Shown here in pieces: positions 9,070-44,836 of a stretch of 64,000 bases of DNA (position 1 is its first letter; each line of letters begins with the position of its first letter). The notes under the pieces are model-generated. The model worked only from the letters and a program-made list of their open reading frames with translations, did no database searches and was not told where the DNA came from. Source of the DNA: Candidatus Eiseniibacteriota bacterium (lineage in GTDB: Bacteria; Eisenbacteria; RBG-16-71-46; CAIMUX01); NCBI GenBank assembly GCA_903844735.1, contig CAIMUX010000022.1, positions 62,001 through 126,000 on the forward strand. Direction: 5' to 3'. A program made the position numbers and the translations under genes.

Positions 9070-10271
9070 TGGGCTGCGCACAACACCTTGTGCACCCCGT
9101 CGATGACATCCCGTGCGTCCTCCTCGGAGATGCGCGTGGAAAACGGGATACTCAAGGTGCGTTGGCTGAGAAACTCGGCGTTGGGAAACATCTCCGGCCG
9201 GTAGCCGAAGGTGTCCCGGTAGTACGGGTGCAGATGCACGGCGCGGTAGTGGACGCCGGTGCCGATGTTCTCGGCTTGCAGCGCCCGCAGCACGCGGTCG
9301 CGGGTCCAACGGAGCCGATCCAGGTCGAGGATCAGCGTGAACAGGTGGTAGGCGTGACGGTCGCCTTCGGCCACCGGCGGCGGCAGGAAAACCGGGAGGT
9401 CGGCGAACGCTGTTAGGTACTGCTGCCAGAGCGCTGCGCGGCGCGTCCAGTTCTCCTCGACCCGCCGCAACTGCGGCACGCCGAGCGCGGCCTGCATGTC
9501 GGTGAGGTTGTACTTGAAACCGGGAAACGAGACCTCGTAGTGCCGGTATCCTTCGTCGGAGTAGCGCTTCCAGGCGTCCTTGCTCATTCCGTGAAGACCG
9601 GCCACCTTGATCCAAGAGGCGATCTCCTCATCACCCGTGGTGACCATGCCACCCTCGCCGGTGATCACGTTCTTGGTTACGTAGAAACTGAACGCGGCGC
9701 AGTCGCCCATGGTACCGGCCTTGCGTCCGCGATGGATCGTCTCCACCCCGTGGGCGGCGTCCTCGAGCAGACGGATCCCGCGTGGGCGGGCAATCGCCTC
9801 CAGGGCGGTGAGGTCGGCCGGGCGGCCGGCGAAGTGGACCGGCACGATGGCCCGCGTGCGCGGCGTGATGGCGCGCTCCACCGCGATCGGATCGATATTC
9901 ATCGTCTCCCGCTCGCAATCGACGAGAACCGGCCTGGCCCCGACATGAACCACGGCGTTGGCGGTGGCCACGAAGGTCATGCTCGGCACGATCACCTCGT
10001 CGCCCGGCTTCACGCCGAGGGCGATGAGGGAGAGGTGCAGTCCGGCCGTGCACGAAGAAACCGCCACGGCGTGCGCCGTGCCGAGGTAGCGGCGGAACTC
10101 CTCCTCGAACTCGGCGACCTGCGGTCCGGTGCCGATCCAGCCGCTCTCGAGGGTGCGGACCACCGCATCGATTTCCTCGCGGCGGATGTCGGGGGCACCG
10201 AAGACCAGGAAGCGGTCGCGGATCGCGCGGCCGCCTTCGATGGCCAGCGGTTCTCGGGCGCGGTCGGTCAT
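9063..10271 (-). CDS. DegT/DnrJ/EryC1/StrS family aminotransferase
   Basis: This 402-residue PLP enzyme belongs to the nucleotide-sugar aminotransferase family. Features in order are the GSGWIGTGPQ-like start of the fold (LESGWIGTGPQ), SSCTAGLHLSL, the Asp of LLEDAAHG, the PLP lysine in SFYVTKNVITGEGG and the C-terminal IGTGVHYRAVHLHPYY. It probably makes an amino-sugar for a surface glycan. An AGGAGG site lies five bases before ATG at 10271. It leads a minus-strand pair with the radical SAM gene, next to glycosyltransferase-like genes on both sides. Confidence 0.9.
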   Translation of the reverse strand: MTDRAREPLAIEGGRAIRDRFLVFGAPDIRREEIDAVVRTLESGWIGTGPQVAEFEEEFRRYLGTAHAVAVSSCTAGLHLSLIALGVKPGDEVIVPSMTFVATANAVVHVGARPVLVDCERETMNIDPIAVERAITPRTRAIVPVHFAGRPADLTALEAIARPRGIRLLEDAAHGVETIHRGRKAGTMGDCAAFSFYVTKNVITGEGGMVTTGDEEIASWIKVAGLHGMSKDAWKRYSDEGYRHYEVSFPGFKYNLTDMQAALGVPQLRRVEENWTRRAALWQQYLTAFADLPVFLPPPVAEGDRHAYHLFTLILDLDRLRWTRDRVLRALQAENIGTGVHYRAVHLHPYYRDTFGYRPEMFPNAEFLSQRTLSIPFSTRISEEDARDVIDGVHKVLCAAQC

Positions 10272-10819
10272 CGATGCCTCCTGTCGGTGCGGCCGGTGCC
10301 GGTCACGCGTCCGTGGGTGATCGCGTCCGGTCCGAGCCGGTCCGTCATGGTACGCCGCGAGAGTCGTGGCGAACAAGTAGCGCCACTTCGAATCTCAGCC
10401 CGGAAGGTGCACCTTGGCACCTATGACGAGCGCTTGCTCGCGGCGGTGCGTCGCCTGAAGATCCCACTCGCCCGGATCTCAGCCGGCCGGCCGCGGCTCG
10501 ACCGGATGCAGTGAGGCGCTCGATGGCGATGGAGTTTCCTTGGGCTTTGATGCATTCTCTCCTCTTGATCGCTCGCTTATGCACAGCGCGAGCGTAAGCG
10601 TTGCACCCCGAGCCGGGCTTGGCTATGCTCGCTCGCGGTCAGGCAAAGGGCGGGAGCGGCGTCCGCCGGCGATCAGTTTTATAGTCAGTCGGGTTGATCG
10701 GGATTGAGGCTCCGGGGCGCGGCGGGCGCTCGGGTACGCTGTGGAGCCTCCGAGAGCCGCCGGGCTCCCGGCGAACGGGACGCGCTCGGCGGGACTTACT
10801 GAGACTACGGGGAGGAAGG
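10272..10819. other. divergent intergenic region
   Basis: This 548-bp gap separates the minus-strand DegT gene from the plus-strand GT-C gene. I support one promoter inside it (10600-10628). The remaining open frames are short and unconvincing. Confidence 0.5.
10600..10628 (+). promoter_or_regulatory. sigma70-type promoter for the GT-C gene
   Basis: TTGCAC and TATGCT are separated by exactly 17 bases. The predicted start of transcription is near 10635, about 185 bases before the chosen GTG. Confidence 0.4.
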
Positions 10820-12475
10820 GTGCCGGGACGTCAGCCTGATCGCGGGCAGCAGGGTCACCCACGCTCGCACCGGCCCGGCCCGCCGTTTGCGCCGCCGCGT
10901 GTGTCAGGACTTGTTTTCTGGCTGGCTGCCGCGCTCCTCGCTGCGACCGGCCTCTACCACGCCCGCGCTTTCTGCCACGATGACGCGTTCATCACGCTGC
11001 GCTACGTCCATCGTCTGGTTACCGGACACGGTCTGACCTGGAACGAGGGCGAACACGTCGAGGGGTTCACGCACCCACTGTGGCTGGGTCAGGTCGCGCT
11101 GCTGCACGGGTTCGACCTGGATCCGGTGGCGGTGGTGCGAGCGCTCGGTCTGGCCTACGTGGCGGCGATCTTCCTGCTATGGTGGCGTGCGCGCGTCCGG
11201 CTGGCACCCCTCCTGCTTGTCGCGACGCAGCCCGGACTTCTGCTTTGGGCACGTAGCGGGCTCGAGACGGCCAGTTTCTGCTTCTGGATGATGGCGGGGG
11301 CTTATCTGGCCCTAGGCGCGAGCGAGCGCGCTCGGGCGGGCGACGCCCGGGCGACGCGCACGGCAGCACTCACCGGAGCAGCATTTGCGGCGGCGGCGCT
11401 CACGCGGCCGGAGGGATTCGGCGCCGGCCTCATCGCGCTGCTCTGGATCTCGCGGGCAAAGCGTCCACGTGTGCTCCTGGCCGCGGCCGCTCTCCTCGTC
11501 GTGCCTCTGGCAGCGTATGGCTTGTTCCGCCTGGCCTATTTCGGCGACGTTCTGCCCAACACGGCCCGCGCAAAGATTGGCGGACTGCACCTGGGCACGC
11601 AGCTGCAACTCGGCTGGTTCTACCTCGCCAGCCAGTGGACGAGCTGGCTCCCGGGCACCGCCGGCGCCGCGATCGCCTTGGCCCTCACCGGGTCTGCCCG
11701 GTCGATGTGGATCGTCGCCCTGTCGCTCCCGGTCTGGATCTCGCTCTTCGCAGGCGGCGGAGATTACATGCCCGGGGCGCGTCTGGTGATCCCGGCCACC
11801 GTGCTCGCGGCGTTCGCCGTCGCGATCTCCCGGCGGCCGGGCACGCGCCGTTCCCACGTGGCGCTGATCGTGCTGTGTGCGGGAGCGGTGTGGCAGGCAG
11901 GAACGGCCCTCACCCAATTGGCGGAGCGTGATGCCGCTCTGACCGTCGGCGAGCCGATCGGGCGCTATCTCGAAGCGCATCTTCCGGCCGGCGCCGTCGT
12001 CGCGACCGCAACCGCGGGCTCGACGCCCTACTATGCACCGTCCCTGCGCTTCATCGACACGCTGGGCCTGAACGACCGCGAGATCGCCCGCCGCAAGATC
12101 GTGTCGATCGAGACGGGCGGCCAGTCGGCTCCGGGGCACGCGAAGGGGGACGGTGCCTACGTGCTGCGCCGGACGCCGGATGTGATCATCCTGGGCCCCG
12201 CCGAGGGGTATCTCGGCCAGGATCCCCGCACGTGGTTCCTGACGGATTTCGAGCTGTTGTCTTCCCGGGAATTCCGCGAGCGGTATCGGCCGTATCAGTT
12301 CCCCGTGAGCGTGTCTCCGGAGGAGGTCGCGCAGCCTCCTCTCGCCCGCATGGCTGATACCTCGAGACGGTTCGTTCCGCTCACGGCGTACCTGCGCATC
12401 GGATCCGTGGCGGCAGAACGGCTCTCGTCCCTCGGAAGACCCATGGTCCCCCCTGGCAGTTCGCCACCGAGGTGA
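10820..12475 (+). CDS. GT-C-type membrane glycosyltransferase (AftB-like)
   Basis: This membrane protein has about ten hydrophobic segments, followed by a soluble C-terminal part of ~150 residues. The first periplasmic loop holds HDDAFITLRYVHRLVTGHG, then VEGFTHPLWLG. That matches the DD-containing loop of GT-C enzymes related to arabinofuranosyltransferase AftB, which use a polyprenyl-phosphate sugar donor. I chose GTG at 10820 because GGAGG lies four bases upstream. A TTG at 10694 would add 42 Arg/Gly-rich residues, and GTG at 10901 would start at the first membrane helix. It probably acts in cell-surface glycan assembly with the neighbouring DegT and GT87-like genes. Confidence 0.75.
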   Translation: MPGRQPDRGQQGHPRSHRPGPPFAPPRVSGLVFWLAAALLAATGLYHARAFCHDDAFITLRYVHRLVTGHGLTWNEGEHVEGFTHPLWLGQVALLHGFDLDPVAVVRALGLAYVAAIFLLWWRARVRLAPLLLVATQPGLLLWARSGLETASFCFWMMAGAYLALGASERARAGDARATRTAALTGAAFAAAALTRPEGFGAGLIALLWISRAKRPRVLLAAAALLVVPLAAYGLFRLAYFGDVLPNTARAKIGGLHLGTQLQLGWFYLASQWTSWLPGTAGAAIALALTGSARSMWIVALSLPVWISLFAGGGDYMPGARLVIPATVLAAFAVAISRRPGTRRSHVALIVLCAGAVWQAGTALTQLAERDAALTVGEPIGRYLEAHLPAGAVVATATAGSTPYYAPSLRFIDTLGLNDREIARRKIVSIETGGQSAPGHAKGDGAYVLRRTPDVIILGPAEGYLGQDPRTWFLTDFELLSSREFRERYRPYQFPVSVSPEEVAQPPLARMADTSRRFVPLTAYLRIGSVAAERLSSLGRPMVPPGSSPPR

Positions 12476-31735: not shown

Positions 31736-32041
31736 ATGAAGCCGTCAAACACCAACGGGAAGGAACTGTTTCGAGCCCAGGCACGCGTCCTCAAAGCTCT
31801 GGCCAACGAGTCTCGCCTGATGATCGTGGATCGTCTGAGCCGCGGGGAGTGCAGTGCGGGCGACCTGACCCGTCTGATCGGGTCCGATCAGACGACGGTT
31901 TCGAAGCACCTTGCCGTCTTGCGCGCCCACGAGATCGTGGCGGACCGGCGGGAGGGAAGCGTGGTCATGTATCGCCTGCTGACGCCCTGCGTCATGAACT
32001 TCTTTTCCTGTGCGACGCAGGTCCTGAAGGAGACGAGATGA
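31736..32041 (+). CDS. ArsR/SmtB family repressor 1
   Basis: A 101-residue winged-helix protein: LKALANESRLMIVDRLSRGE, recognition helix around DQTTVSKHLAVLRAHEIV, wing DRREGSVVMYRL. The cysteine in GECSAGDL occupies the place of the ArsR ELCVCDL metal site, and CVMNFFSC adds two more, so thiolate sensing of As(III), Hg(II) or similar is plausible. I prefer ATG 31736, because the earlier ATG (31709) lies inside the predicted promoter. It opens the metal(loid) island and probably controls the permease gene 40 bases downstream. Confidence 0.85.
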   Translation: MKPSNTNGKELFRAQARVLKALANESRLMIVDRLSRGECSAGDLTRLIGSDQTTVSKHLAVLRAHEIVADRREGSVVMYRLLTPCVMNFFSCATQVLKETR

Positions 32042-32081
32042 CAGGCATCTTTTTGTTTGGCAAGAGTTTGTCGGCAAGGCC

Positions 32082-33200
32082 ATGTCGTCATGTGCCGGCG
32101 GGGTCGCGGCATGGGATGAAGACGTGAAAGCCGATGTTGAATGCTGCGCCCCCGCCGAGTCGCCCGCGTCCGCGCCCAGGCCGGCGCAGAGGCGGCTTTG
32201 GTATGGACTTGCGGGCGGGATCGTAGTCTGGATCGCGCTCTACCGCCTGTTGAAGCCGGCGGCCGCTCTGCTGATCTACGACACCATCGGCCTGATCCGG
32301 GGCACGCGTCTGGCAAGCAGCGTCGAGTTCTTCGTCTACGAGGTGCCCAAAGTCCTCATGCTCCTCGTCCTCGTGGTCTTCGGCGTGGGGATCGTTAGGA
32401 CGTTTTTCACCCCCGAACGGACACGCCGCACCCTGGCCGGAAAGCGGGAGTCGCTCGGCAATGTTCTCGCTGCTGCCCTGGGCGTGGTCACTCCGTTCTG
32501 CTCCTGTTCCGCCGTGCCTCTGTTTCTCGGCTTCGTCGAGGCTGGGGTACCGCTCGGCGTCACGTTTTCGTTTCTGATCTCCGCTCCGATGGTAAACGAA
32601 GTCGCCCTTGTTCTGCTCTTCGGTCTCTTCGGGTGGAAGGTGGCCGGTCTCTACCTGGCAACCGGTCTCTTGATCGCCATCGGCGCCGGATGGGTACTCG
32701 GTCGCCTGCGGCTTGAGCGCTATATCGAACCGTGGGTCCATGAGACAAGACTCGGCGTCGGCGGGCCGATCGAAGAAGACCTTACCTGGGATGATCGAGC
32801 GCAACGAGCGCTCCAGGCTGTTCGGGAGATCGTGGGAAAAGTCTGGCCCTACGTCGTCGGCGGAATCGCCGTCGGCGCGGGCATCCATGGCTACGTTCCC
32901 GAGGGACTGATGGCGGGGATCATGGGCAAGTCCGCCTGGTGGTCCGTTCCCGCCGCCGTACTCGTCGGCGTGCCAATGTACTCGAATGCCGCCGGCATCG
33001 TTCCGGTGGTCCAGGCACTTCTCGAGAAAGGCGCGGCCCTGGGGACCGTGCTTGCCTTCATGATGGCCGTGATCGGGCTGTCGCTGCCGGAGACAATCAT
33101 CCTGCGCAAGGTTCTGCGGCCACCGCTCATCGCCGCATTCGTCGGTATCGTCGCGTGCGGAATCCTCATGGTCGGCTATTTGTTCAACCTGATCTTCTAA
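32082..33200 (+). CDS. UPF0718/ArsP-like membrane permease
   Basis: A 372-residue membrane protein with about eight helices and the hallmark TPFCSCSAVPLFLGF of the UPF0718/DUF318 permeases. Known members include ArsP, which exports trivalent methylated arsenicals, and SO_0444-type metal(loid) exporters. The second signature GVPMYSNAAGIVP is present in the C-terminal half. The N-terminus carries a CCAP pair and one more Cys, possible metal-binding thiols. ATG 32082 was chosen, though its ribosome-binding site is weak. It follows arsR1 directly and shares its strand with acr3 and hgcAB further on. Confidence 0.85.
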   Translation: MSSCAGGVAAWDEDVKADVECCAPAESPASAPRPAQRRLWYGLAGGIVVWIALYRLLKPAAALLIYDTIGLIRGTRLASSVEFFVYEVPKVLMLLVLVVFGVGIVRTFFTPERTRRTLAGKRESLGNVLAAALGVVTPFCSCSAVPLFLGFVEAGVPLGVTFSFLISAPMVNEVALVLLFGLFGWKVAGLYLATGLLIAIGAGWVLGRLRLERYIEPWVHETRLGVGGPIEEDLTWDDRAQRALQAVREIVGKVWPYVVGGIAVGAGIHGYVPEGLMAGIMGKSAWWSVPAAVLVGVPMYSNAAGIVPVVQALLEKGAALGTVLAFMMAVIGLSLPETIILRKVLRPPLIAAFVGIVACGILMVGYLFNLIF

Positions 33201-33568: not shown

Positions 33569-35752
33569 ATGAGAGATTCAACAGGGCCGCGGCACTCCGT
33601 CATCGAAGGACTGGCAGCCGGGTGGCGGGGCGTCAAGGCGTGGTCCACAGACTCGCCGTACATGCCCCGGCTAGTCGCCGCGGGGATGGCGACACTTTAT
33701 TGGGAGCTGCTCCTCATCCGGTGGCTCAGTGCCTGGGTTCGGATCGTCGCCTACTACACCAATTTTGTCCTCATCGCGGCGTTCTTCGGTTTGGGGCTGG
33801 GGGCGCTGCTGGCGAGGCATCGGTTTCGCCTGACCCGGTGGCTCGCACCCCTCCTGAGCCTCGGCATCTTGGCCGCCCTTGCCTTCTCCCAGTCGTTCCA
33901 TCTCAATCCTGCGAGTCCGCAAGAGCACATTTGGATCGGCGCGCCCAGCGGCATGGGTTTGGCCGGGGCCACGTACACGCACCGGATCCCCCTCCCGCTC
34001 CTTCTGGGGTTCCTTTATGTTCTGGTCGCCGCCATCTTTGCTTGCTTCGGCCAGTGGCTCGGCCTTCTCTTTGAGGGGCGCCCTCCTCTCCGTGCCTACT
34101 GCCTTCAAATTGTCGGAAACATCCTGGGAATCCTCCTCTTTGCGAGCTTCTCCTTCCTGGGCCTGAGTCCGGCTGTCTGGATCCTCGTAGGGTTCATCAC
34201 GGTTCTCGGCGCTCTCGATATGAAGCGCTCCGACAGGTTGATCGCCTCGGTTCTATTTGCGGGCGTTCTGGCGGCGGTTGTTCCCGCCGTGCGGCCTTAC
34301 GTGTGGTCGCCCTACTACAAGATTCGGATGACCCCCATCACCTCGATAGAGGACACCGAACGGAAACAGATCGTGCAATTTCCGAGCACGGTGGGCTACT
34401 CGCTGACCGTGAACAACGACTATCATCAAATGCTCCTCGATTTGCGGCCCAGCCCGCAGGAGCATCCGTTCTTTACCAGCTGGCGCCAGCTCTACGAGTT
34501 TCCCTACGCACTGGACAAGTCCCTGCCGGAAGGCCCCATTCTCGTGATCGGAGCCGGGACCGGCAATGATGTAATGGCCGCGTTGCGGGCGACGAACCGC
34601 CGGATCTATGCTGTGGATATCGACCCCGCGATCGTCGGGATCGGCCGCACCTATCATCCCGAGCGGCCCTATCAAGACCCGCGGGTGACCCTCATCGTGG
34701 ACGACGCAAGGTCCTTCATGCAGAAGACGCCCGTCCGCTTCGCCATCGTCGTGTTCGGCTTCTTGGACAGCCACACGCTCTTTTCCTCGTTCTCGTCCTT
34801 GCGGCTGGACAATTTTGTCTATACGACCGAGTCGTTCCGCCGGGTCAAGGAGATCCTCGTTCCCGGAGGCGAGGTGGCCGTGACATTTGCTTGCCCGCAG
34901 GAGTGGCTCTTCAACCGGATGAGCACGATGATGGATCAGGTGTTCGATGCCCCCACGGACCCCCATTGGCCGCCCCCCCCAGCCTTCGCCAACGGCATCG
35001 TGTTCCGGAATTTCAAGGCGCCCGTCCCCGCCGGGCTAAGGCCCCTGCGGCCATCCGTAGCGGAGGCGCGCCTTCCGACGGACGATTGGCCCTTCTTCTA
35101 CCTGCAATCGCCTCGCATCCCCTCGCATTACATCCCGTTTCTCCTCATCATCGTTGGGTTGGGGTCTCTGAGCCTTCTCGGTCTGCCCGGGTCGCAAAGA
35201 CGGCTCAACCTGCCTTACTTCTTTATGGGCGCCGCGTTCTTCCTGCTTGAGACGAGCAACGTAGTGAACCTGTCGCTGCTGTTCGGGTCCACGTGGGCCG
35301 TCAATGTCGTGGTTTTCTTGGGAATCCTATGTCTGACGCTGGTCGGCACGCTGTCGGCGTCCGGTCGGATCGGAAGGCTCCCGGCGTGGAGCCTGTTTCT
35401 GGCGCTCTTCGCCAGCCTGGCGGTGTCCTACTGGCTGCCGGCCTCGGCGCTACTCGGAATCGAGTCCATGGCACTTCGCGTGGCTGCGGCCTCCGTGATC
35501 TTCCTGGGCCCGGTGTTTTTCGCGGCCGTGATCTTCGCGCAGCTGATCCGCGGAGAGGAGCATCTGGCACAAGCCTATGGGTCCAACCTGCTCGGCGCGG
35601 TGGTCGGCGGCGCATGCGAATACCTGTCCCTTGCCTTTGGGTTCCACTTTCTGTTGCGGTTGGCGTTTCTCCTCTATTTCCTGGCTTTCTTGACCGCAAG
35701 AAACCGGGGCCGGACGAATGCAGCGCCGGCGATAACCGCCACTCCCCGCTGA
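33569..35752 (+). CDS. membrane-embedded spermidine synthase-like (SAM-dependent transferase fold) protein
   Basis: A 727-residue protein. An N-terminal block of about seven membrane helices is followed by a SpeE-type Rossmann domain (VIGAGTGNDVMAALR, YAVDIDPAIVGIGRTYHP, VDDARSFMQ) and a second membrane block of five to six helices. The aminopropyl- or methyl-transferase fold is complete at its SAM-binding site, but the substrate is unknown. Similar membrane proteins occur widely and are often only called spermidine synthase-like. Start ATG 33569; the frame stays open upstream, but there it lacks membrane character. Its position between arsP-like and arsR2 genes suggests a link to metal(loid) stress, which is inference. 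Confidence 0.75.
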   Translation: MRDSTGPRHSVIEGLAAGWRGVKAWSTDSPYMPRLVAAGMATLYWELLLIRWLSAWVRIVAYYTNFVLIAAFFGLGLGALLARHRFRLTRWLAPLLSLGILAALAFSQSFHLNPASPQEHIWIGAPSGMGLAGATYTHRIPLPLLLGFLYVLVAAIFACFGQWLGLLFEGRPPLRAYCLQIVGNILGILLFASFSFLGLSPAVWILVGFITVLGALDMKRSDRLIASVLFAGVLAAVVPAVRPYVWSPYYKIRMTPITSIEDTERKQIVQFPSTVGYSLTVNNDYHQMLLDLRPSPQEHPFFTSWRQLYEFPYALDKSLPEGPILVIGAGTGNDVMAALRATNRRIYAVDIDPAIVGIGRTYHPERPYQDPRVTLIVDDARSFMQKTPVRFAIVVFGFLDSHTLFSSFSSLRLDNFVYTTESFRRVKEILVPGGEVAVTFACPQEWLFNRMSTMMDQVFDAPTDPHWPPPPAFANGIVFRNFKAPVPAGLRPLRPSVAEARLPTDDWPFFYLQSPRIPSHYIPFLLIIVGLGSLSLLGLPGSQRRLNLPYFFMGAAFFLLETSNVVNLSLLFGSTWAVNVVVFLGILCLTLVGTLSASGRIGRLPAWSLFLALFASLAVSYWLPASALLGIESMALRVAAASVIFLGPVFFAAVIFAQLIRGEEHLAQAYGSNLLGAVVGGACEYLSLAFGFHFLLRLAFLLYFLAFLTARNRGRTNAAPAITATPR

Positions 35753-35896
35753 GTCTCCACAAGGGTGTCCGGCGCCCGCGGCGCGAACGGATCCAGGCGG
35801 TCCCGGACCGCCGCCAGAGGAAGGTTGCGCGTGCGGCGGCAAGACCCGCCTTCACCGCGTGTCACGCCGCGGCAGATTCCTTCGCTTGGTTTTCGG

Positions 35897-35925
35897 TTGA
35901 CGGCCGAGGCGAGTCAAACTACAAT
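35897..35925 (+). promoter_or_regulatory. arsR2 promoter with inverted repeat (leaderless)
   Basis: TTGACG (35897-35902), 17 bases, TACAAT (35920-35925): a near-consensus sigma70 promoter. TTGAC and GTCAA form an inverted repeat (35897-35917) across the spacer and fit an ArsR-type operator. Transcription should begin at about 35932, one base before the ATG, so the mRNA is probably leaderless. Confidence 0.65.
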
Positions 35926-35932
35926 TACCTAC

Positions 35933-36319
35933 ATGAGTACAAGCGAAACAACGAGCACAGTCAGAGCGAGACCCAGGTCTCAGGTTGACAAGATGTTCCG
36001 GGCCTTCGCGGACCGGACTCGTCTTAGGATCCTGCACCTTCTTCAGGACGGCGAGCTCTGCGTCAGCGACCTCATCACGATCCTGAGAGTGCCGCAGGCG
36101 AAGGCGTCCCACCACCTCAACTACCTGCGCCGGGCGGGACTGGTTGAGGTGCGCAAGCAGGGGCTCTGGTGCTTCTACCGTCTCCGTCCGGCCCAGACTG
36201 TCTTTCATCAGAAACTGCTCGAGTGTCTTGGGCAGTGTTTCGCCGACGTGCCCGGACTGGCCGCGGATCGGGAACGCGCGGCGAAGACCAAGGCGTCCGG
36301 CGGATGCTGTCCGAAGTGA
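35933..36319 (+). CDS. ArsR/SmtB family repressor 2
   Basis: A 128-residue ArsR protein: MFRAFADRTRLRILHLLQDG, then ELCVSDL with a single metal-ligand Cys, recognition helix KASHHLNYLRRAGLV, wing RKQGLWCFYRL. The C-terminus ends GGCCPK, adding a vicinal Cys pair, as in thiol-based As/Hg sensors. It is the first gene of a plus-strand run that goes through acr3 to hgcAB, so it is the best candidate regulator of the mercury-methylation genes. ArsR-like regulators are known next to hgcAB in other genomes. Confidence 0.88.
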   Translation: MSTSETTSTVRARPRSQVDKMFRAFADRTRLRILHLLQDGELCVSDLITILRVPQAKASHHLNYLRRAGLVEVRKQGLWCFYRLRPAQTVFHQKLLECLGQCFADVPGLAADRERAAKTKASGGCCPK

Positions 36320-36528
36320 AGGCTCAAGGAGCGACGGGCGAACGTGCCCTCACGGTCCGGGGACAGGGCCGAGCGAGGACGGGCCGCGTGGATCGCAGCG
36401 TCCTGTGCGCGTTGTCCATGGTGAAAGATGTTCCCATAGTCGCCCGCCGGGGCGGCTTCGATCCGCTGGGAGAGTCAGAGATCCCGACGGGGAGTCCAGA
36501 ACGGCACTACCATCGCAGGGAGGTCAAA

Positions 36529-37281
36529 ATGCTCGCACGCGTCCTCGGATTCCTCTTTCTGGCCCTCGGATTCTTAGCACCGTCGGCGCAAGCCTCACCG
36601 CGGCAAGATCTCGATTCGGCTGCCAAGCAGAAGAAGGTGGCGTTCGTCCTTGTCACGGACCTGGGGGCAGCAGGGGTCGATGCGGCGAGGGAAATGATTC
36701 AGCAGGCAATGCGGCAGGTCAAGAAGTCGACCCTCGTCGAGCTGGACCGATCCAGTCCGGGCAACGCTGACCTCGTAGCCAAGTTCCGGCTCGCCGGAGC
36801 CCCTGTTCCGCTCATCCTGGTCACTGCGACCACCGGCATGCTCGCAGGCGGGGTTGCTGCCGCCCAGGCGACCGCGGAACAGCTCGTCGGGATGGTTCCT
36901 TCGCCGAAGAAGGCCGAGGCTCTCGAGGCCATCCAGAACGGCAAGGCGGTTTTGATCTCCGCGAGCCGCAAGGGTATGGCCGCGCAGTCGGGAGCGAAGG
37001 CCGCCTGCGCGACTGCCTGTGGCCAGTTGGCCGACAAGTGCGTCACGGTGCAGATCGACATGGATGATCCGCAGGAAGCGGGTTTTCTCGCGGCCATGAA
37101 GGTCAATCTCGCCTCCACCGAGCCCGTCATCCTGGTGATCAACGCTCAGGGGCAGGTCACGGGGACATATGCGGGAGCGGCCGATGTAGCCACCCTCGTT
37201 CAGGCGACCACGAAGAAGGCGGGCGGTTGCGCCCCCGGGGCTTGCGGCCCCGGCGCCAAGGCCTGTGGTCCGGCAAAGTAA
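36529..37281 (+). CDS. secreted Cys-rich protein of unknown function
   Basis: A 250-residue protein with a clear signal peptide (MLARVLGFLFLALGFLAPSA, cleavage after AQA). The mature part looks like two ~90-residue alpha/beta units (KKVAFVLVTDLGAAG, then GKAVLISASRKG), possibly thioredoxin-like but without CxxC in the usual place. Cysteines cluster in CATACGQLADKC and in the tail GGCAPGACGPGAKACGP. GGGAGG lies five bases before ATG 36529. Its place between arsR2 and an ABC transporter suggests a periplasmic thiol protein that binds or hands over a metal. That is inference, and no family is assigned. Confidence 0.75.
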   Translation: MLARVLGFLFLALGFLAPSAQASPRQDLDSAAKQKKVAFVLVTDLGAAGVDAAREMIQQAMRQVKKSTLVELDRSSPGNADLVAKFRLAGAPVPLILVTATTGMLAGGVAAAQATAEQLVGMVPSPKKAEALEAIQNGKAVLISASRKGMAAQSGAKAACATACGQLADKCVTVQIDMDDPQEAGFLAAMKVNLASTEPVILVINAQGQVTGTYAGAADVATLVQATTKKAGGCAPGACGPGAKACGPAK

Positions 37282-37293
37282 GGAGTCAGCACC

Positions 37294-38514
37294 TTGAGAC
37301 TACGCACCATTCTTTGGAAGGAACTCCTGCTGCGCAAGTCCCGCATGATCTCGGGGTTGCTCGCGATCACCCTCGGCATTGCGGTCATCGTCGGGATCCA
37401 GTCCGTGTCCGACGTTTCGAAGAGGGCCGTCGCGATCAAGCTCGACAACTTAGGCTCGAACATTCTTGTCCTGCCCCAGGCGGCCTCCGTCGACGACTAC
37501 TATTCCGCCGACATCGATGCGCCGACGTTTCCTGAGGACTACGTGGAGCGGTTGGCCACGTCGATGCTGCCAAGTGTGGACAACCTGTCGCCCAAGCTCA
37601 CCAGGCGTGTCAAGGTCGGCGGCGTACCGATCATCCTCACCGGGATCCTGCCCGCGAGTGAATTGGCCTCCAAGCCGATTTGGCAGAGCGCCGGGCTGGC
37701 CGGAGACGAACTGGCCTTGGCGTGCGGGACGAGCCCCGAGATCAAAGAGGGACCTTCGTACGTCGACGAGAAGCTACAGCGCAAGGCGATCGACACGTTG
37801 GCGCCAACCGAGATTCTGGTGGGGAGCGTCGCCGCCGAGCGGTTGCGTCTTTCCGACGGGGGAACCGTCCTGATCGAAGGCCGGCAGTTCCAGGTGGCCC
37901 GGGTCCTGCCGACGACCGGCACGATCGATGACAGTCGGGTGTACGCCCATCTTCACGTGGTGCAGGAACTCCTCGGAACCGGGCCGCAGGTCAGCGCCAT
38001 TGAAATCATGGGCTGTTGCGCGGCCATTTCAGACGGACTCCTCGGCAAGCTCCGCAACATCCTGCCTGACACCCGGATCGTGACCATCGGGCAGATCGTC
38101 AGCACGCAGATCGAGACCAACCGGTTGATGGCCAAGGTGTCGGTCATCCTGCTGGTCCTGATCGCCATGATCGGCTCCATCTCCATCGCCAACTACATGT
38201 GGGCGAACGTAGAGGAACGCCGGAGGGAGATCGGGACCTTTCTCACACTTGGGGCGACCCGGGGGAGCATCTACCGGCTCTTCTTCGCCAAGGCCGTCAT
38301 CCTCGGCTTGCTCGGCGGCATCTGCGGCTACGTTCTCGGCACCGCCTCGGCCATGGTGCTCGGCCCACAGCTCGCGCGGCTCTCCGTGGAGCCGGTACCC
38401 ATCTATCTCCTTTGGTCACTCGGAATCGCCGTCGCCATTGCTCTCCTGGGGAGCTGGTACCCGACGTACCGGGCCACTCGCCTCGACCCGGCGTCGATCC
38501 TGCAGGAGGTGTAG
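37294..38514 (+). CDS. FtsX/MacB-type ABC transporter permease
   Basis: A 406-residue protein: one N-terminal membrane helix (ISGLLAITLGIAVIVGIQSV), a large periplasmic MacB-core domain (~residues 40-250) and three C-terminal helices with the FtsX pattern (EERRREIGTFLTLGATRGSI). It starts with TTG after AAGGAG. Together with the ATPase encoded four bases downstream it forms a MacB/LolCDE-type mechanotransmission complex. Such complexes usually drive periplasmic substrates through an outer-membrane partner. Its position in the island suggests a metal(loid)-related substrate, but no outer-membrane partner is seen here. Confidence 0.85.
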   Translation: MRLRTILWKELLLRKSRMISGLLAITLGIAVIVGIQSVSDVSKRAVAIKLDNLGSNILVLPQAASVDDYYSADIDAPTFPEDYVERLATSMLPSVDNLSPKLTRRVKVGGVPIILTGILPASELASKPIWQSAGLAGDELALACGTSPEIKEGPSYVDEKLQRKAIDTLAPTEILVGSVAAERLRLSDGGTVLIEGRQFQVARVLPTTGTIDDSRVYAHLHVVQELLGTGPQVSAIEIMGCCAAISDGLLGKLRNILPDTRIVTIGQIVSTQIETNRLMAKVSVILLVLIAMIGSISIANYMWANVEERRREIGTFLTLGATRGSIYRLFFAKAVILGLLGGICGYVLGTASAMVLGPQLARLSVEPVPIYLLWSLGIAVAIALLGSWYPTYRATRLDPASILQEV

Positions 38515-38518
38515 CCCC

Positions 38519-39211
38519 ATGTACGTCCTGGAAAGCGCTGACAAGGCCTATACGAGTCGTCGGGGAACCGTCCATGCCTTGCGTAGCGTGTCCCTGGAGA
38601 TTCCCAAGGGAAGCTGCGTGACCATCACCGGTCCGTCGGGGTCCGGCAAGACGACACTGCTTCTGACGCTGGGGGGGCTGATCCGCCCGACGTCCGGGCG
38701 TGTCTTGTTCCACAGCGTCGACCTAGGTGGTCTCAGCGATGCGAGGCTTGCCCAATATCGGAATCAGAAGATCGGTTTCGTCCTGCAGACATTTAATCTT
38801 GTTCCCTACTTGAGCGCGCTGGAAAACGTCATGGTGCCGATGATGTTCATGCACCGATCGAAGAACGGCCTGGCCGGACGGGCGCGGGATCTGCTCGGAC
38901 GCCTCGGCTTGGGCGATCGTGCGGATCACCTTCCCCGGGAGCTTTCGGTCGGACAGCAGCAGCGCGTGGCGATCGCGCGGGCTTTGGGAAATGATCCGGA
39001 AGTGATCCTAGCCGACGAGCCGACGGGCAACCTCGATCCGCGTCTCGCCACGGAGGTTCTGGATACCCTTCGCGAGCTGAACGAGAAGGATGGCCGTACC
39101 GTGATCATGGTCACGCACAGTCCGGAGGCTGCACGGATCGGAAACCGAAAGCTGCATCTGGTCGAAGGAACCTGCCAGGACGGAGCGCTACCGGGCACGG
39201 TTGCGGTCTGA
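38519..39211 (+). CDS. ABC transporter ATP-binding protein (MacB/LolD-type)
   Basis: A 230-residue ATPase with Walker [11 protein letters not shown]-loop [18 protein letters not shown], signature [15 protein letters not shown], Walker [13 protein letters not shown] and the H-loop VTHSPEAA. The signature has V for the second G of LSGGQ. AGGAGG lies nine bases before ATG. It pairs with the upstream FtsX-like permease. Confidence 0.93.
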
Positions 39212-39233
39212 GACTAGAGGGAGGGGTCCCGAA

Positions 39234-40340
39234 TTGAAGGGGACAAGTGGCGAAAACGCGCTGCGACCAAGGGGCGTGAGTGCGGGGGCGGCTGCCCCCG
39301 GGAGGCTTCCGTTCCTCGACCGCTACTTGACGATCTGGATCTTCGTGGCCATGGCGATCGGGGTCTGCCTCGGAGCGGTAGCGCCCCAGGCCGTCCGCTT
39401 CATCACGCGTTTCCAGGTCGGCACGACATCGATACCGATCGCGGTCGGGCTCATCCTCATGATGTACCCGCCGCTGGCCAAGGTGAAGTACGAGGAACTG
39501 GGCGGGGTCTTCCGCAACTTCCACGTGCTCGGCCTCTCCCTCGTGCAGAACTGGATCGTTGGGCCGATCCTGATGTTCGGCCTCGCCGTGCTCTTCCTGC
39601 ACGACAAGCCTGAGTACATGGTCGGCCTGATCATGATCGGGCTCGCCCGCTGCATCGCCATGGTCATCGTCTGGAACGATCTCGCGAAGGGAGACACCGA
39701 GTACTGTGCTGGGCTGGTCGCGTTCAACTCGATCTTCCAAGTGCTCTTCTATTCGGTCTACGCCTACGTCTTCATCACCGTGCTGCCGACCTGGTTCGGG
39801 CTCGAGGGTGTGGCGGTCAGCATCACCATCGGCGAGATCGCCAAGAGCGTGTTCATCTATCTCGGCATCCCGTTTCTGGCTGGGATCATCACCCGGTTCA
39901 CTCTGATCAAGGTGAAGAACAAGGAGTGGTATCACGGGAGATTCATCCCGAAGATCAGCCCGATCACGCTGATCGCGCTTCTCTTCACCATCGTCGTGAT
40001 GTTCTCGCTCAAGGGCAAGACCATCGTCCAGCTTCCGTTCGATGTCGTGCGGATCGCAATCCCTCTGCTCATCTACTTCGTGCTGATGTTCTTCGTCTCT
40101 TTCTTCATGAGCAAGAAGGTCGGGGCAACGTACGGCCAGGCGGCGACGCTTTCGTTCACGGCTTCATCGAACAACTTCGAGCTGGCCATCGCGGTGGCGG
40201 TGGCTACGTTCGGCATTCACCACGGTGCGGCCTTTGCCGCGGTCATCGGGCCACTCGTCGAGGTCCCGGTGCTTATCGGACTCGTCAATGTCTCCCTTTG
40301 GCTGGGGCGCAAGTACTACGGGAGGCGTGAGGTCGCATGA
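39234..40340 (+). CDS. acr3: ACR3 family arsenite efflux permease
   Basis: A 368-residue protein with ten membrane helices, typical of ACR3. [17 protein letters not shown] opens the first helix, [14 protein letters not shown] follows helix 2, [16 protein letters not shown] carries the conserved Cys needed for As(III) transport, and [16 protein letters not shown] is the second signature. It exports arsenite from the cytoplasm. I chose TTG 39234, preceded by AGGGAGGGG; an upstream TTG (39201) overlaps the ATPase gene. The stop overlaps an ATG of the next small frame, which leads into hgcA. Confidence 0.95.
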
Positions 40341-40622
40341 TGGCACGGAATCGGATGGCGGAGACGGCGAAGGTCGAAGCCCTCAAAGCCGGGTGGCATC
40401 CTGTATCTCTTGACGAAAGCCCCCGGCATTCATTCGTGGAGGAAGAAATGGAATCGAAGTGCGGTGACGGAAGCCACGGCGTTCCTTGTTGCGGGGGTGG
40501 CCCGGACAAGGGCACGGGTTCGAGTGGATCCGCGGCGAACTGCGATTGCGGTGCCCCCGATGCAGATGGGCTCAGGCGTGCTGCTCATCGGCGCGGGTTT
40601 CTACCTGTCGGCCAAAGGGTAA
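40337..40622 (+). pseudogene. small Cys-rich ORF, possible frameshift (or 5' extension of hgcA)
   Basis: Starting at an ATG that overlaps the acr3 stop, the frame encodes a Cys-rich segment (ESKCGDGSHGVPCCGGG, ANCDCG). After a run of five C (40554-40558) the plausible continuation is in another frame (MQMGSGVLLIGAGFYLSAKG), a hydrophobic tail ending at TAA 40620-40622. That TAA overlaps the hgcA ATG as TAATG. Read this way, it is a small Cys-rich membrane protein broken by one base. In the original frame there is no stop before hgcA, so a longer HgcA with a Cys-rich N-terminus cannot be excluded. Confidence 0.4.
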
Positions 40623-41719
40623 TGGGTGAGGGGCAATGGCGAGGCGATATGGCGAGAGGTGACCTTTCCTGGACGGACGGCACCCTAGACACCGAAGCCG
40701 GCTCCGTCCCACGGGCGCGCACCCGCCTTGATCTCCGTGACCGCCTGGGTGCGGTCAAGGCCCGGTGGGGCATCGGACGAATGGACTATTCCGTGTCGCC
40801 GGGCCTATACGCGGTAGGTAGCCCGGGGGCTCCGTCGCCGGTTCTGGTCTCCGCGAACTACAAACTGAGCTTCGACGGCTTGCGCGGGGTGTTGTCCGGC
40901 CGTGACGCCTGGATCCTCGTGCTCGATACCCACGGCATCAACGTCTGGTGCGCAGCCGGCAAGGGCACGTTCGGCACCGACGAGATCGTGCGGCGGGTGC
41001 GGGGCGCGGCGCTCGATCGGGTCGTCCACGATCGCGTTCTCGTGGTTCCGCAACTCGGTGCGCCGGGAGTGAGTGCACACCTGGTGCGACAACGATGCGG
41101 GTTCCGCGTGGTCTATGGGCCCGTTCGAGTCGAGGACCTTCCCGCGTTTCTGGATGCGGGCATGACGGCCGGACCCGAGATGCGGCAGGTGCGCTTTTGC
41201 CTGCGAGACCGTGCGGTGCTGATCCCTGTCGAGTTGGTCATGGGGGCGAAGTATGCCCTGTTGCCGGCGGCAGCCATCCTCTTGCTCGGGGGCCTCGGTT
41301 CGGACGGATACTCTCTGGCGCGAGTTCGTGCGACGGGCTTGCCGGGCGCGGGCCTCATTCTGGGTTCGTTTCTTTGCGCAGCGATTCTCGGGCCGACGCT
41401 GTTGCCCTGGTTGCCCGGCCGGGCCTTTGCGATCAAGGGCGCCGCGCTGGGCCTGGCGCTGGTTGGCGTGTGGGCGATCCTGGGGTGGCCGGGGATGAGC
41501 GCTCCGGTCTCCTGGCTGCACGTGGCGGCGTGGACGCTGATCGTGACCGCCATGAACAGCTTCGTCGTGATGAACTTCACGGGCGCGTCGACCTACACGT
41601 CACTCAGTGGGGTGCTGCGCGAGATGCGCTTCGCCGTGCCTGCGCAAATCTCGGGGGCGGTCGTCGGCATCGGTCTTTGGCTGACCGGCCTCTTTGTCAG
41701 AGGCGGGGGAGGCACATGA
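40622..41719 (+). CDS. hgcA: HgcA, corrinoid protein of mercury methylation
   Basis: A 365-residue protein made of a soluble corrinoid-binding domain (~1-200) and five membrane helices (~205-360), the HgcA layout. The diagnostic cap-helix motif NVWCAAGKGTF carries Cys110, the proposed lower cobalt ligand. ANYKLSFDGLR, DAWILVLDT and RWGIGRMDYSVSPGLYAVG also match the family. HgcA passes a methyl group from its cobalt to Hg(II), giving methylmercury. I chose ATG 40622, since TAATG overlap with the preceding frame implies coupling. Its stop overlaps hgcB (ATGA). It lies downstream of acr3, an ABC pair and arsR2 on one strand. Confidence 0.93.
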   Translation: MGEGQWRGDMARGDLSWTDGTLDTEAGSVPRARTRLDLRDRLGAVKARWGIGRMDYSVSPGLYAVGSPGAPSPVLVSANYKLSFDGLRGVLSGRDAWILVLDTHGINVWCAAGKGTFGTDEIVRRVRGAALDRVVHDRVLVVPQLGAPGVSAHLVRQRCGFRVVYGPVRVEDLPAFLDAGMTAGPEMRQVRFCLRDRAVLIPVELVMGAKYALLPAAAILLLGGLGSDGYSLARVRATGLPGAGLILGSFLCAAILGPTLLPWLPGRAFAIKGAALGLALVGVWAILGWPGMSAPVSWLHVAAWTLIVTAMNSFVVMNFTGASTYTSLSGVLREMRFAVPAQISGAVVGIGLWLTGLFVRGGGGT

Positions 41720-42003
41720 GGTATCTCGAGGAAGTCGCGACCTTGGAACTCGACGTGACCCGATGCAACGGCTGCGGCATGTGCATGCGGGTCTGTCCGC
41801 ACGCGGTGTTCCGCCTGGAGAACAGGCGGGCCGTCGTCGCCGACCGCGGAGCCTGCATGGAGTGCGGAGCCTGCGCGAGGAACTGCGAGCCGGAGGCGAT
41901 CCGGGTTCGCGCCGGGGTCGGTTGCGCGGCGGGTGTGCTGACCGGCCTGCTGAGGGGTACCGGGCCGACCTGCGACTGCTCGGGAAAGTCGGCCTGCTGC
42001 TGA
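41716..42003 (+). CDS. hgcB: HgcB, 2[4Fe-4S] ferredoxin of mercury methylation
   Basis: A 95-residue ferredoxin with CNGCGMCMRVCP (C17, C20, C23, C27) and CMECGACARNC (C47, C50, C53, C57). ECGAC is the HgcB hallmark. The C-terminus holds C70, CDC (86-88) and a terminal CC pair (94-95), as in known HgcB proteins, where these thiols are thought to bind Hg(II). HgcB reduces the HgcA corrinoid and may deliver mercury. It overlaps the hgcA stop by four bases and ends 11 bases from a convergent gene, so it is the last gene of the island. Confidence 0.94.
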   Translation: MRYLEEVATLELDVTRCNGCGMCMRVCPHAVFRLENRRAVVADRGACMECGACARNCEPEAIRVRAGVGCAAGVLTGLLRGTGPTCDCSGKSACC

Positions 42004-42014
42004 TCCGTCCCGCA

Positions 42015-44537
42015 TCACTGGATCTTCACCAGCCGCCTGATCGCATCACCGGAGGCGCCGGTGAGCCGGACCAGGTAGATTCCGGTGGGCGTGTCGCGAC
42101 CGGTGCCGTCCCGGCCGTCCCACTCCAGCGGCGCGCTGCCGTCGGCCCGCGCCAGCGTCCGTACAAGCCTTCCGGCCGGGTCGAAGATCTCCGCGCGTGC
42201 CGGGCCTGCCCCGGGGGGCGTCAGCCGTGCCGAGCCGCGAAACGGAGTCGGACCGACCGACCAAGCTAGCGCCGGCGGGTCCCACCGAGCTTCCACCGAA
42301 CCGATGAATTCGCTGCGAGCACCGTTGACGCTCATCTCCAGGAAATAGCGAACCGTGGCCCCGCGAGGAGCCCCCGGGTCCACGATCTCGATGATCCCTT
42401 CGGGAGATGCTGTGATCCACGCGGATGACACAAGCGTCGCCTCAGGCGTAGGGGTGAGATCGTGCGGCCCGGCCGCCGGATCGCGCCAGACTCGATAAGA
42501 GCCGCCGGTCGCGCCGACCGGTATCTCCCAGCGGATCTGCAGCCCCTCAGCGAGTGACGCCACCGCCCGCGACTCGAGAAGAACCGGGGTAATGGGACAC
42601 AGATTCGGCATGCATGGTATACCCGCACCCAGCCAGGAATTCGGTGACTCGCACTCTGCTTGGAGGGTGAGTGTGCAGGCGGTGTCCGGGCGGCAACAGG
42701 CGCCGGCGGGAGGGCCCAGCAGACCGGCGCTGTGATACCCGCCTGCCGCGATCGTCGCGAACGCGGCGTCGGGCGAGAGCGCCGTGCACTGGCCCAAGTC
42801 GTCGGATCCCCACGCAACGATCACGCCGCCGGTCTTCAGCGCAAGGCTGTGTAAGGTGCCTCCCGCAATCGCCGTGAACCCGGTATTGGGCGCAGGGACA
42901 TTGCACTGCCCGAAGTCGTTGTATCCCCACGCCACGACTGCACCGTCGGCCCTCAGGCCCAGGCTGTGGAGGTAGCCTCCCGCGATCGCCGTGAACCCGG
43001 CGTTGGACTCGGGCACGACACACTGGCCGGATGCGTTGTCGCCCCACGCCACAATCGCGCCGTCGACCTTCAGACCAAGGCTGTGCCCCAAGCCCCCGGC
43101 GACGGCGAGGAAGTCGGTATTGGGTCCAGGCACGTTGCACTGGCCGAAGCCGTTGTACCCCCAGGCGACGATCCGGCCGTCGGTCTTCAGGCCAAGGCTG
43201 TGGATATTGCCGGCCGCAACCGCCGCGAAACCGGCGTTGGGTGTCGGTACGGCGCATTGGCCGTACGTATTGTCCCCCCAGGCCACGATCACACCGGCGG
43301 AGGTGAGAGCGAGGCTGTGCCGTCCGCCGGCCGCGATGGCCGTGAACCCGGTGTCGGGCGCCGGCACGTTGCACTGGCCGCCGCCGTTATCTCCCCACGC
43401 GATGATGACACCGTCGGACGTGAGACCGAGGGTGTGCCACGAGCCGGCCGCGACCGCCGTGAACCCGGTGTCGGGCGCCGGCACGTTGCACTGGCCGCTG
43501 GTGTTGTAGCCCCACGCCAGAATGGAACCTGCGCTCGGCTCAGGGCACGGATTCGCGTCGCAGGTGAGCCAATCGGAGCGCCAGACGCTCGGCGCTGCGC
43601 AGTCATCCTGCGTGGTCACCGTACAAGAGCCTGTCGGCGTGCAGCAGACGCCACGCACGAGGCACGGATTCGGGACGCAGACCGTGAGGTCGCCCCGGTA
43701 GGTGCCGCTGTCCTCGGGGCACCGCGTCTCCACGGTGACCTCACAGAGCCCGCCTTCGTAGCAGCAGGCGCCGGTCGGCGGCGGACATGGATTCGCGTCA
43801 CAGGTCAGCCATTCGGGGCGCCAGACGTCCGGCGCGGAGCAGTTGTTCACCGTCGTCACGATGCAGGTGCCTGCCGGATCGCAGCAGACCGCGTTGGGAT
43901 TGCGGGTTGGGCACGGCGTCGTGCCGGCCTGCCCGAAACCCAGAGAGCCGTAGCCCATGATCGGGTCGGCGTTATGTGGCGTGGCGTCATCGGTGAAGAA
44001 CCGGTTGGCCGCGTCGGCGTAGGGCACGGTGCCGAACGACTGGGGCGTGCGGCTGAGGCCGCCGTAGCCATAGCCGCTGAAATAGTATAGCTCGACCACG
44101 GTCGTGGTTCGGGGGCCGGTGGGAAAGAACTGTTCGATCATGCCGCCATCGGTGCTCGGCCAGCCGCCACGAGTGCCTGCGAGATCGGTGCCCGGGCCAT
44201 CCGCATTCGGGAGACCGCAACCTCCGAGGTCGATGGAGACGTACCCGCCGCCAACCGAGGAGATGGCCAGACCCCAACTGACGCCCTTCAATCGCGGGCG
44301 GCCTCCCGCCGGAAACGCGGCGTAGACCTTCCAGACCGCCTTGATCTCCTGCAAGTCTTGCTGATTGTCGACGCCGGAGCAGTCGGTGGGCGCCGGACTC
44401 ACGGGCGGCCCGGGCGGATCGGTCGAGTAGATCAGACCGGTGTCGTGGACCCAGAGCACGCCGCCCGCGTTCGGCCCGGCCATCGTTGTCGAGGCGGTAC
44501 ACCACAGCACCGCCAGAAGCCATCGTGCCTGCTTCAT
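42015..44537 (-). CDS. secreted RCC1-repeat protein with GACC Cys modules and FlgD-like C-terminal domain
   Basis: An 840-residue secreted protein: signal peptide (MKQARWLLAVLWCTASTTMA), an ~190-residue N-terminal domain, three Cys modules (GACCYEGGLCEVTVETRC type, each ending NPCP), seven RCC1-type repeats of ~36 residues (AWGDNGGGQCNVPAPDTGF, AAGGRHSLALTS), a fourth Cys module, a fibronectin-like region and a FlgD-type Ig end (WDGRDGTGRDTPTGIYLVRL). ATG 44537 has GGAGG ten bases upstream. It is probably a surface or exported adhesin-like protein. The Cys modules and FlgD end are common in FCB-group genomes. No enzymatic motif is seen. Confidence 0.8.
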   Translation of the reverse strand: MKQARWLLAVLWCTASTTMAGPNAGGVLWVHDTGLIYSTDPPGPPVSPAPTDCSGVDNQQDLQEIKAVWKVYAAFPAGGRPRLKGVSWGLAISSVGGGYVSIDLGGCGLPNADGPGTDLAGTRGGWPSTDGGMIEQFFPTGPRTTTVVELYYFSGYGYGGLSRTPQSFGTVPYADAANRFFTDDATPHNADPIMGYGSLGFGQAGTTPCPTRNPNAVCCDPAGTCIVTTVNNCSAPDVWRPEWLTCDANPCPPPTGACCYEGGLCEVTVETRCPEDSGTYRGDLTVCVPNPCLVRGVCCTPTGSCTVTTQDDCAAPSVWRSDWLTCDANPCPEPSAGSILAWGYNTSGQCNVPAPDTGFTAVAAGSWHTLGLTSDGVIIAWGDNGGGQCNVPAPDTGFTAIAAGGRHSLALTSAGVIVAWGDNTYGQCAVPTPNAGFAAVAAGNIHSLGLKTDGRIVAWGYNGFGQCNVPGPNTDFLAVAGGLGHSLGLKVDGAIVAWGDNASGQCVVPESNAGFTAIAGGYLHSLGLRADGAVVAWGYNDFGQCNVPAPNTGFTAIAGGTLHSLALKTGGVIVAWGSDDLGQCTALSPDAAFATIAAGGYHSAGLLGPPAGACCRPDTACTLTLQAECESPNSWLGAGIPCMPNLCPITPVLLESRAVASLAEGLQIRWEIPVGATGGSYRVWRDPAAGPHDLTPTPEATLVSSAWITASPEGIIEIVDPGAPRGATVRYFLEMSVNGARSEFIGSVEARWDPPALAWSVGPTPFRGSARLTPPGAGPARAEIFDPAGRLVRTLARADGSAPLEWDGRDGTGRDTPTGIYLVRLTGASGDAIRRLVKIQ

Positions 44538-44836
44538 CGGTCCGTGACCTCCGCAGACGTTGTGCCGCCGCAAGACGGCCCTCACCGGTCCGCGTGCGGG
44601 CCCGTCGGTTGCCCAGCGATCCTTGTGCCGAGACCTCGGTGGTCCGGTGATCCCCTCACCGTGCCGGACATCGCTCCGATCGAAGTCGCCACCCCCGAGC
44701 ATAGCAGCGCCATAAGGGACTCGCCAGGGGCTTCCGGACATCTCCGGCCGCTGGGGGCGATCCAAACCACCCGTGGATGCGGCCGCCGCGAGATCTGTGC
44801 TAGTCTCTGCGAGACGGAAGGAGGATCGCCGACGCG

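Follow-up and report, generated by a model that had tools for sequence, protein, structure and literature searches.

Why do genes for mercury methylation stand at the end of a run of arsenic-resistance genes? The HgcA and HgcB proteins make methylmercury, a major neurotoxin, and their native role and regulation are an open question. We analyzed a stretch of 64,000 nucleotides, here called the window, from a Candidatus Eiseniibacteriota bacterium (assembly GCA_903844735.1, contig CAIMUX010000022.1, positions 62,001 to 126,000). It is part of a 130-kb contig in a 5.4-Mb draft genome (142 contigs, 95.8% complete). Seven genes occupy positions 35933-42003 on the forward strand, in the order arsR2, a gene for a secreted protein, genes for an FtsX/MacB-type permease and a LolD-like ATPase, acr3, hgcA and hgcB. 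The explanation that we favor, and regard as reasonably probable, is that hgcAB forms the 3′ end of an ArsR2-controlled arsenic-resistance operon and makes methylmercury, and that this block was exchanged horizontally with the lineage of another genome of the phylum (G012) and then trimmed. The parts of this explanation that are observed directly are gene identity, gene order, motifs, a conflict between trees and a deletion scar.

The hgcAB genes are a genuine pair. The HgcA reading frame (40337-41719, within which the gene probably covers 40649-41719 and encodes 356 amino acids) scores 426 bits against the NCBIfam HgcA_corrinoid equivalog model (NF040863, cut-off 275), and that of hgcB (41716-42003, overlapping hgcA by 4 bases) scores 118.5 bits against HgcB_ferredoxin (NF040864, cut-off 99). 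The cap-helix cysteine motif, whose general form is N(V/I)WCA(A/G)GK, reads NVWCAAGK in the window protein and is invariant in all 11 aligned HgcA sequences. Kyte-Doolittle windows, merged by us, yield five hydrophobic segments (residues 189-214, 234-252, 260-287, 290-310 and 328-352), which predict the five-helix C-terminal membrane domain of HgcA. HgcB is a dicluster ferredoxin with the Fe-S motifs CNGCGMCMRVC and CMECGACARNC and a terminal CC. A first-pass annotation of the same DNA had already reported the cap cysteine, the five membrane helices, the CMECGAC motif and the terminal CC, all of which are borne out by the family scores, the alignment and the hydrophobic segments.

That annotation had also raised membership in the related CdhD/CFeSP group as a possible objection. 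The equivalog scores, the cap cysteine and a tree of HgcA proteins place the window protein outside that group. The CFeSP equivalog (PRK04165) gives 57.6 bits for a cut-off of 306, and CFeSP structures match HgcA residues 151-276 only, with the cap cysteine and transmembrane domain both present. The protein does match the Pfam CdhD model (35 bits, cut-off 24.8) and is the only CdhD-family match in the whole genome. This match is expected because HgcA proteins are a subset of PF03599 with a strictly conserved cap cysteine, as stated in the accessible part of a paper on HgcAB structure (PMC7305189). The structural model outlined there resembles the window pair in its corrinoid domain with a cap cysteine, five transmembrane helices, dicluster HgcB and C-terminal cysteines, and differs in lacking the possible cysteine-rich N-terminal extension of the window HgcA that is described below. 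The window also encodes a class II, B12-dependent ribonucleotide reductase (RNR), which indicates corrinoid use. From these features, HgcA is predicted to methylate Hg(II) together with HgcB.

The genes upstream make up an ars operon of the ACR3 type, since an ArsR-family repressor gene (arsR2, 35933-36319) and a gene for an ACR3-family arsenite efflux permease (acr3, 39201-40340, starting at 39201 or 39234; NCBIfam acr3 453.9 bits, cut-off 282.8) lie in one same-strand run. Between them are the genes for the secreted protein (36529-37281), the FtsX/MacB-type ABC permease (37294-38514) and the LolD/MacB-like ABC ATPase (38519-39211). The first-pass annotation had described this same-strand order with a cysteine-rich secreted protein, and Pfam and NCBIfam models confirm ArsR2, FtsX, the ABC ATPase and ACR3. 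Its description of the spacing, with overlaps or gaps of no more than about 210 bp, agrees with the 209-base gap after arsR2 but probably fails between acr3 and hgcA, where 308 bases intervene once the start of hgcA is revised as explained below. An arsenate reductase gene is common but not universal in ars operons; none was seen in the run of the window, and one is present in that of G012.

Comparison of gene order in related genomes, which had been proposed together with the first-pass annotation, reveals that G012 (locus L033) carries the same order with three extra genes between acr3 and hgcA. The shared proteins are 62-84% identical in amino acid sequence, and thus the arrangement in the window is not due to chance. 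Identity between the two genomes is 84.1% for ArsR2, 62.2% for the thioredoxin-like secreted protein, 83.5% for FtsX, 71.1% for LolD, 83.1% for ACR3, 80.5% for HgcA and 82.1% for HgcB, compared with 71.6% for rpoB and 66% over the main RNR piece.

The trees of rpoB and HgcA tell different stories about these genomes. In the rpoB tree (10 rows), the family of the window forms a clade with G005, G007 and G008 (support 100/99) and G012 falls outside this clade and outside the window's order, to which G008 belongs. The window rpoB was also compared with 11 of 20 named genomes, none of which is near: identity is 51% over almost the full protein to the Planctomycetota-labelled genome behind L014 and 59-61% over the largest piece to three Acidobacteriota-labelled genomes, and the genome behind L015 gave no match. 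A clade of G012 with the window's family is rejected (p-AU 0.001 in the approximately unbiased (AU) test); a clade of the family with G008 alone is also rejected, because G008 groups with G007 and G005. Placing the window HgcA in a tree of HgcA proteins (25 rows), another check suggested at the outset, makes it the sister of the G012 protein (100/97). Clades that unite the window with G008 (p-AU 0.0059) or with G008 and G005 (0.00019), and one of all four phylum members (0.0145), are rejected. Among the 47 phylum genomes, cap-motif HgcA was found in these four, namely those of the window, G012, G008 and G005; G001 and G021 hold weaker HgcA matches without the cap motif. Given the shared block and the conflicting trees, the block probably moved horizontally. 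We infer that it was exchanged between the window and G012 lineages as one unit, with no direction assigned.

Several points temper this conclusion. LolD and the thioredoxin-like protein are no more similar to their G012 counterparts than rpoB is, which leaves the remaining five genes and the trees to carry the case for transfer. In the best HgcA tree the window, G012 and G008 together make up one branch (94/77, unstarred), G008 has an odd residue composition in that tree, and the tree had been seen before the test clades were chosen. The contig itself looks like the genome's own rather than a stray sequence, as the two best-scoring matches of the RNR come from the two genomes of the window's own family. 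GC content in 1-kb steps is 0.61-0.68 across 35-42 kb and 0.60-0.70 elsewhere between 28 and 46 kb, and thus the block bears no foreign signature. No tRNA that could mark an insertion was found in the window, and the long HgcA open reading frame (ORF) has no match in 72,556 plasmid records (tblastn, E 1e-5).

The same pattern could arise if the block had been inherited vertically, lost in most relatives and represented by paralogues in others. The sample of 47 phylum genomes leaves room for this scenario, as absence from draft genomes is weak evidence. However, AU tests back the disagreement between the HgcA and rpoB topologies, and FtsX is 83.5% identical to the G012 protein but only 47% to that of same-order G007 and 48% to that of G015. 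Thus, we view vertical inheritance as unlikely, if worth keeping in mind.

Alignment with G012 also bears on the start of the window hgcA gene. The longest HgcA ORF runs from 40337 to 41719 and encodes 460 amino acids. Matches begin at residue 102-112 of this ORF in the five closest relatives (G012, G008, G005, L013 and L014) and mostly at residue 92-135 in others, and the NCBIfam HgcA model begins at residue 124. The gene therefore probably starts at the ATG at 40649 rather than at 40337, which would separate it from acr3 by 308 bases, whereas the long ORF overlaps acr3. In G012, the corresponding interval carries an arsC-like gene of the low-molecular-weight phosphatase family, a gene for a cysteine-rich membrane protein (about 140 residues, a single hydrophobic stretch) and a gene for a CcdA-like protein (DsbD_TM, 234 residues). 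Window positions 40438-40565 align to L033 positions 9216-9343, which is the start of the cysteine-rich membrane protein gene, and the sequence from 40552 onward aligns to 10276-11711, which is the tail of the CcdA-like gene followed by hgcA. Relative to G012, the joint lacks about 930 bases, and the arsC-like gene is absent too. The resulting scar spans 40438-40622. An N-terminal extension that is an old domain of HgcA was rejected as an interpretation because the extension contains the scar.

The joint leaves an open frame that runs from the ATG of the former cysteine-rich gene (40448, preceded by GGAGG) into hgcA. It makes possible an HgcA protein with a cysteine-rich N-terminal arm of 67 codons (40448-40648), although 40649 is at least as likely to be the start. 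The order of events appears to be that the window lineage lost arsC, the cysteine-rich membrane protein and the CcdA-like protein after the exchange of the block. The scar and the long ORF might instead be assembly errors, in which case the true genome would retain all three genes. This is a draft assembly, but the missing piece might then be expected on some contig. No match to the G012 CcdA-like protein exists in the genome of the window, a search in which the same query did find G012 and G008, and the only ArsC-like match is weak and lies on another contig. We consider an assembly artifact quite improbable, and a real deletion remains the reading that we carry forward.

How might the run be regulated? 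A scan of 35500-42300 detected two promoter-like sites (0.7 expected), one on the reverse strand and the other on the forward strand at 35897-35925. The latter (TTGACG-17-TACAAT) matches the consensus, and its -10 box stops seven bases short of the arsR2 ATG. By eye, G012 also has a TATAAT seven bases before its arsR ATG. The promoter scan found no site between acr3 and hgcA, and the four terminator-like sites over the scanned stretch (3.8 expected) include none in that gap. From this arrangement, co-transcription from arsR2 to hgcB seems plausible.

The ArsR2 protein has ELCVSDLI at the metal-site position and a C-terminal tail of SGGCCPK, and its best matches among solved structures are SmtB and a cadmium regulator. 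The classical ArsR site is ELCVCDLC. Induction by As(III) or another thiol-binding metal may be expected from the family and its cysteines. Certain observations dampen our enthusiasm for this regulatory scheme. The aligner did not pair the -10 boxes of the window and G012, the -35 element of G012 appears weak by eye, and an inverted-repeat operator was looked for before arsR2 and not found. Moreover, promoters that escape a sigma-70 scan could lie in the 209 bases after arsR2 or in the 308 bases after acr3. Lastly, of the three cysteines in the classical site ArsR2 retains one, which leaves its inducer uncertain.

To place the locus in context, hgcA loci were collected by similarity to the window HgcA, and thus they are not a random sample. 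All neighbor counts refer to 25 loci whose HgcA has the cap motif, the window and 24 others, and the neighbor profiles were built partly from loci that were later counted. Five of the 29 loci (L009, L011, L032, L038 and L039) have no ORF of at least 120 amino acids with the cap motif and enter neither the tree nor the counts. These five, including L038 from G001 and L039 from G021, encode HgcA-like proteins without the cap motif, and four of the five have an HgcB-like ferredoxin match nearby. The HgcA-like open frame of G021 is 854 amino acids long. They are possibly an HgcAB-like fusion family or other corrinoid proteins.

An acr3 gene lies upstream on the same strand in five of the 25 loci, which are the window, G012, L015, L029 and L031 (a Chloroflexi-labelled draft genome). 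This trait requires at least four changes on the HgcA tree for its five carriers, as counted among the 20 loci whose upstream sequence reaches at least 2.7 kb. CcdA-like genes are found upstream of hgcA in four loci (L033, L034, L015 and L029) using a profile from four proteins; L033, L034 and L015 were among its seeds, so that L029 is the only non-seed match. This second trait needs three changes for four carriers among 19 loci, the window not counted. Thus, a thiol-reducing relay accompanies HgcAB repeatedly but not often. Within the phylum, relatives of the G012 CcdA-like protein (E 1e-10) occur in two of the 47 genomes, G012 and G008, and in both the gene directly precedes hgcA; the ORF list of G008 (L034), inspected by eye, also includes the cysteine-rich membrane protein. 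A same-strand ArsR-family gene is upstream in 10 of the 25 loci, with a weak match in L034 (E 5e-11). The L015 locus presents a separate version of the window arrangement, in which arsR, arsP, genes for two secreted proteins that look thioredoxin-like by eye, a CcdA-like gene, acr3, hgcA and hgcB form a same-strand run at 3018-11424.

These counts bear on the possibility that hgcAB merely adjoins the ars operon and is expressed from a separate promoter within the 308 bases that follow acr3, so that the neighborhood has no functional meaning. The gap with its scar is compatible with this idea, as are the 15 loci that lack any match to acr3, ArsP, ArsC, CcdA or a same-strand upstream ArsR, four of which hold less than 2.7 kb upstream. 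However, the repeated appearance of acr3 upstream of hgcA on separate branches, the close spacing of the genes from acr3 to hgcA in G012 and the lack of a promoter-like or terminator-like site found in the gap make this rather unlikely. We continue to prefer a single ArsR2-controlled operon.

Another question is whether HgcAB in such operons acts on mercury at all. It might serve arsenic instead, for instance through methylation of a trivalent arsenical or reductive reactions of thiol-bound arsenic, with methylmercury as a side reaction. The repeated placement behind acr3 is consistent with such a function, and so is the result that four of the five genomes with acr3-hgcAB, that of the window included, have no ArsM above the NF008823 cut-off. 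Among eight genomes searched, only G012 and the genome behind L013 exceed it. However, G012 has the same operon and its ArsM match is just over the cut-off (263.2 versus 263), a single family model can miss divergent ArsM proteins, and draft genomes are incomplete. Furthermore, the cap cysteine, the HgcB tail and the family scores are those of mercury methylators. An arsenic function of this kind seems very unlikely. A bolder version, which we would rate no higher, is that transferable arsenic-thiol operons repeatedly carry HgcAB as their last module, that its true function concerns arsenic or thiol-bound soft metals in general, with methylmercury a by-product, and that in this lineage the deletion fused a cysteine-rich metal-binding tail to HgcA as its own metal-delivery arm.

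The secreted protein and the ABC pair are best understood from genomes that lack hgcA. The secreted protein has no Pfam match at 0.001, and a sequence search for solved relatives returned only a chance-level match (E 0.82). An AlphaFold2 model built from a four-row alignment predicts two successive thioredoxin-like units (mean predicted local distance difference test score 82.3) with both ends disordered, including a cysteine-rich tail. The best PDB matches in Foldseek are tandem-thioredoxin proteins (top match 1a8l, E 4.3e-7). The whole-chain TM-score is about 0.3 and the root-mean-square deviation exceeds 12, and thus the likeness extends to the domains and not to their arrangement. The protein is modelled as two tandem thioredoxin folds.

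Homologues of the secreted protein are present in four of the 47 phylum genomes (those of the window, G012, G015 and G007), and a class-level search covered the same 47. In G015 the run consists of acr3, arsR and the genes for the thioredoxin-like protein, FtsX and LolD. In G007 it consists of the same trio and arsR, with no acr3 in the 8.4 kb examined. The trio thus lies next to arsR as in the window, but without hgcAB, and neither genome has an HgcA match. An arsenic-handling role for the trio is the simpler and more likely reading, which weakens the earlier suggestion that these proteins handle mercury either before it is methylated or afterwards. In G007 (L053), an ORF resembling an insertion sequence (IS)-type integrase (3750-4640, by eye) adjoins the arsR gene of this module.

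Taken together, the favored explanation implies the following mechanism. ArsR2 would repress the promoter immediately ahead of its own start codon until trivalent arsenic, or another thiol-binding metal, binds the ArsR2 cysteines and lifts repression. A single transcript would then supply the tandem-thioredoxin secreted protein, the ABC pair, the ACR3 arsenite pump and HgcAB. HgcB would reduce the corrinoid on HgcA, the cap cysteine of HgcA would hold the methylated corrinoid, and the methyl group would pass to Hg(II) to give methylmercury. The block would have been swapped as one unit between the two lineages, after which that of the window would have lost the three genes still present in G012.

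The general idea has precedent, as both an association of hgcAB with ars genes and control by ArsR are in print. A study published in 2020 (PMC7438021) reported hgcAB beside acr3, arsC, arsM and arsR in diverse putative methylators, and its accessible text describes, as in the window, hgcAB next to or a few genes from acr3, arsC and arsR. The window's lineage may or may not be among those methylators. The portion of the article available does not mention the thioredoxin, ABC, CcdA-like and cysteine-rich membrane module, the scar or the block transfer, which are features of the window. Pseudodesulfovibrio mercurii ND132 likewise has an ArsR-like regulator gene upstream of hgcAB, which papers that cite Gionfriddo et al. 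2023 (PMC10349881, PMC12953829, PMC13362967) describe as co-transcribed and responsive to arsenic. Unlike ND132, the window has four structural genes between arsR2 and hgcA, and G012 has seven.

Surveys, as far as their accessible sections report, give a mixed picture. In one, arsR is upstream within three ORFs in 14 of 31 genomes of confirmed methylators, whereas only four of the 35 hgcAB contigs of the survey itself carry an ars-associated gene and none carries arsR (PMC10349881). Another reports arsR genes that are not close to hgcAB (PMC12953829). Both weigh against our explanation: with no arsR beside hgcAB in the surveys' own contigs or metagenome-assembled genomes, the hgcAB-arsR link is not general. 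The gene set described here, the scar and the block transfer were not found in the literature searched, in which subscription journals are mostly out of reach. None of the literature matches listed pairs hgcA with thioredoxin or CcdA, which is weak evidence of absence.

Farther upstream on the same strand, 2.7 kb from arsR2, is a second ars-like unit (31736-33200). It contains arsR1 (31736-32041), which codes for an ArsR/SmtB-type regulator (HTH_metalloreg 81.6 bits, cut-off 55), and a gene for an ArsP_1-family permease (32082-33200), for which the nearest NCBIfam model is SaoE, below cut-off. The unit is separated from arsR2 by a gene for a 750-residue protein with a spermidine-synthase-like domain. 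It lies outside the block shared with G012, where the permease was not found in L033 and the ArsR profile finds one regulator only. Directly after hgcB, a convergent gene on the reverse strand (42015-44765) codes for a large protein that by eye shows RCC1-like repeats and cysteine-rich GACC segments.

Because hgcAB stands behind arsR and acr3, seemingly moves with them and recurs with the same type of pump in separate branches of the HgcA tree, the link with arsenic is directly testable. If our explanation is true, exposure to arsenic could both select for mercury methylation and switch it on.

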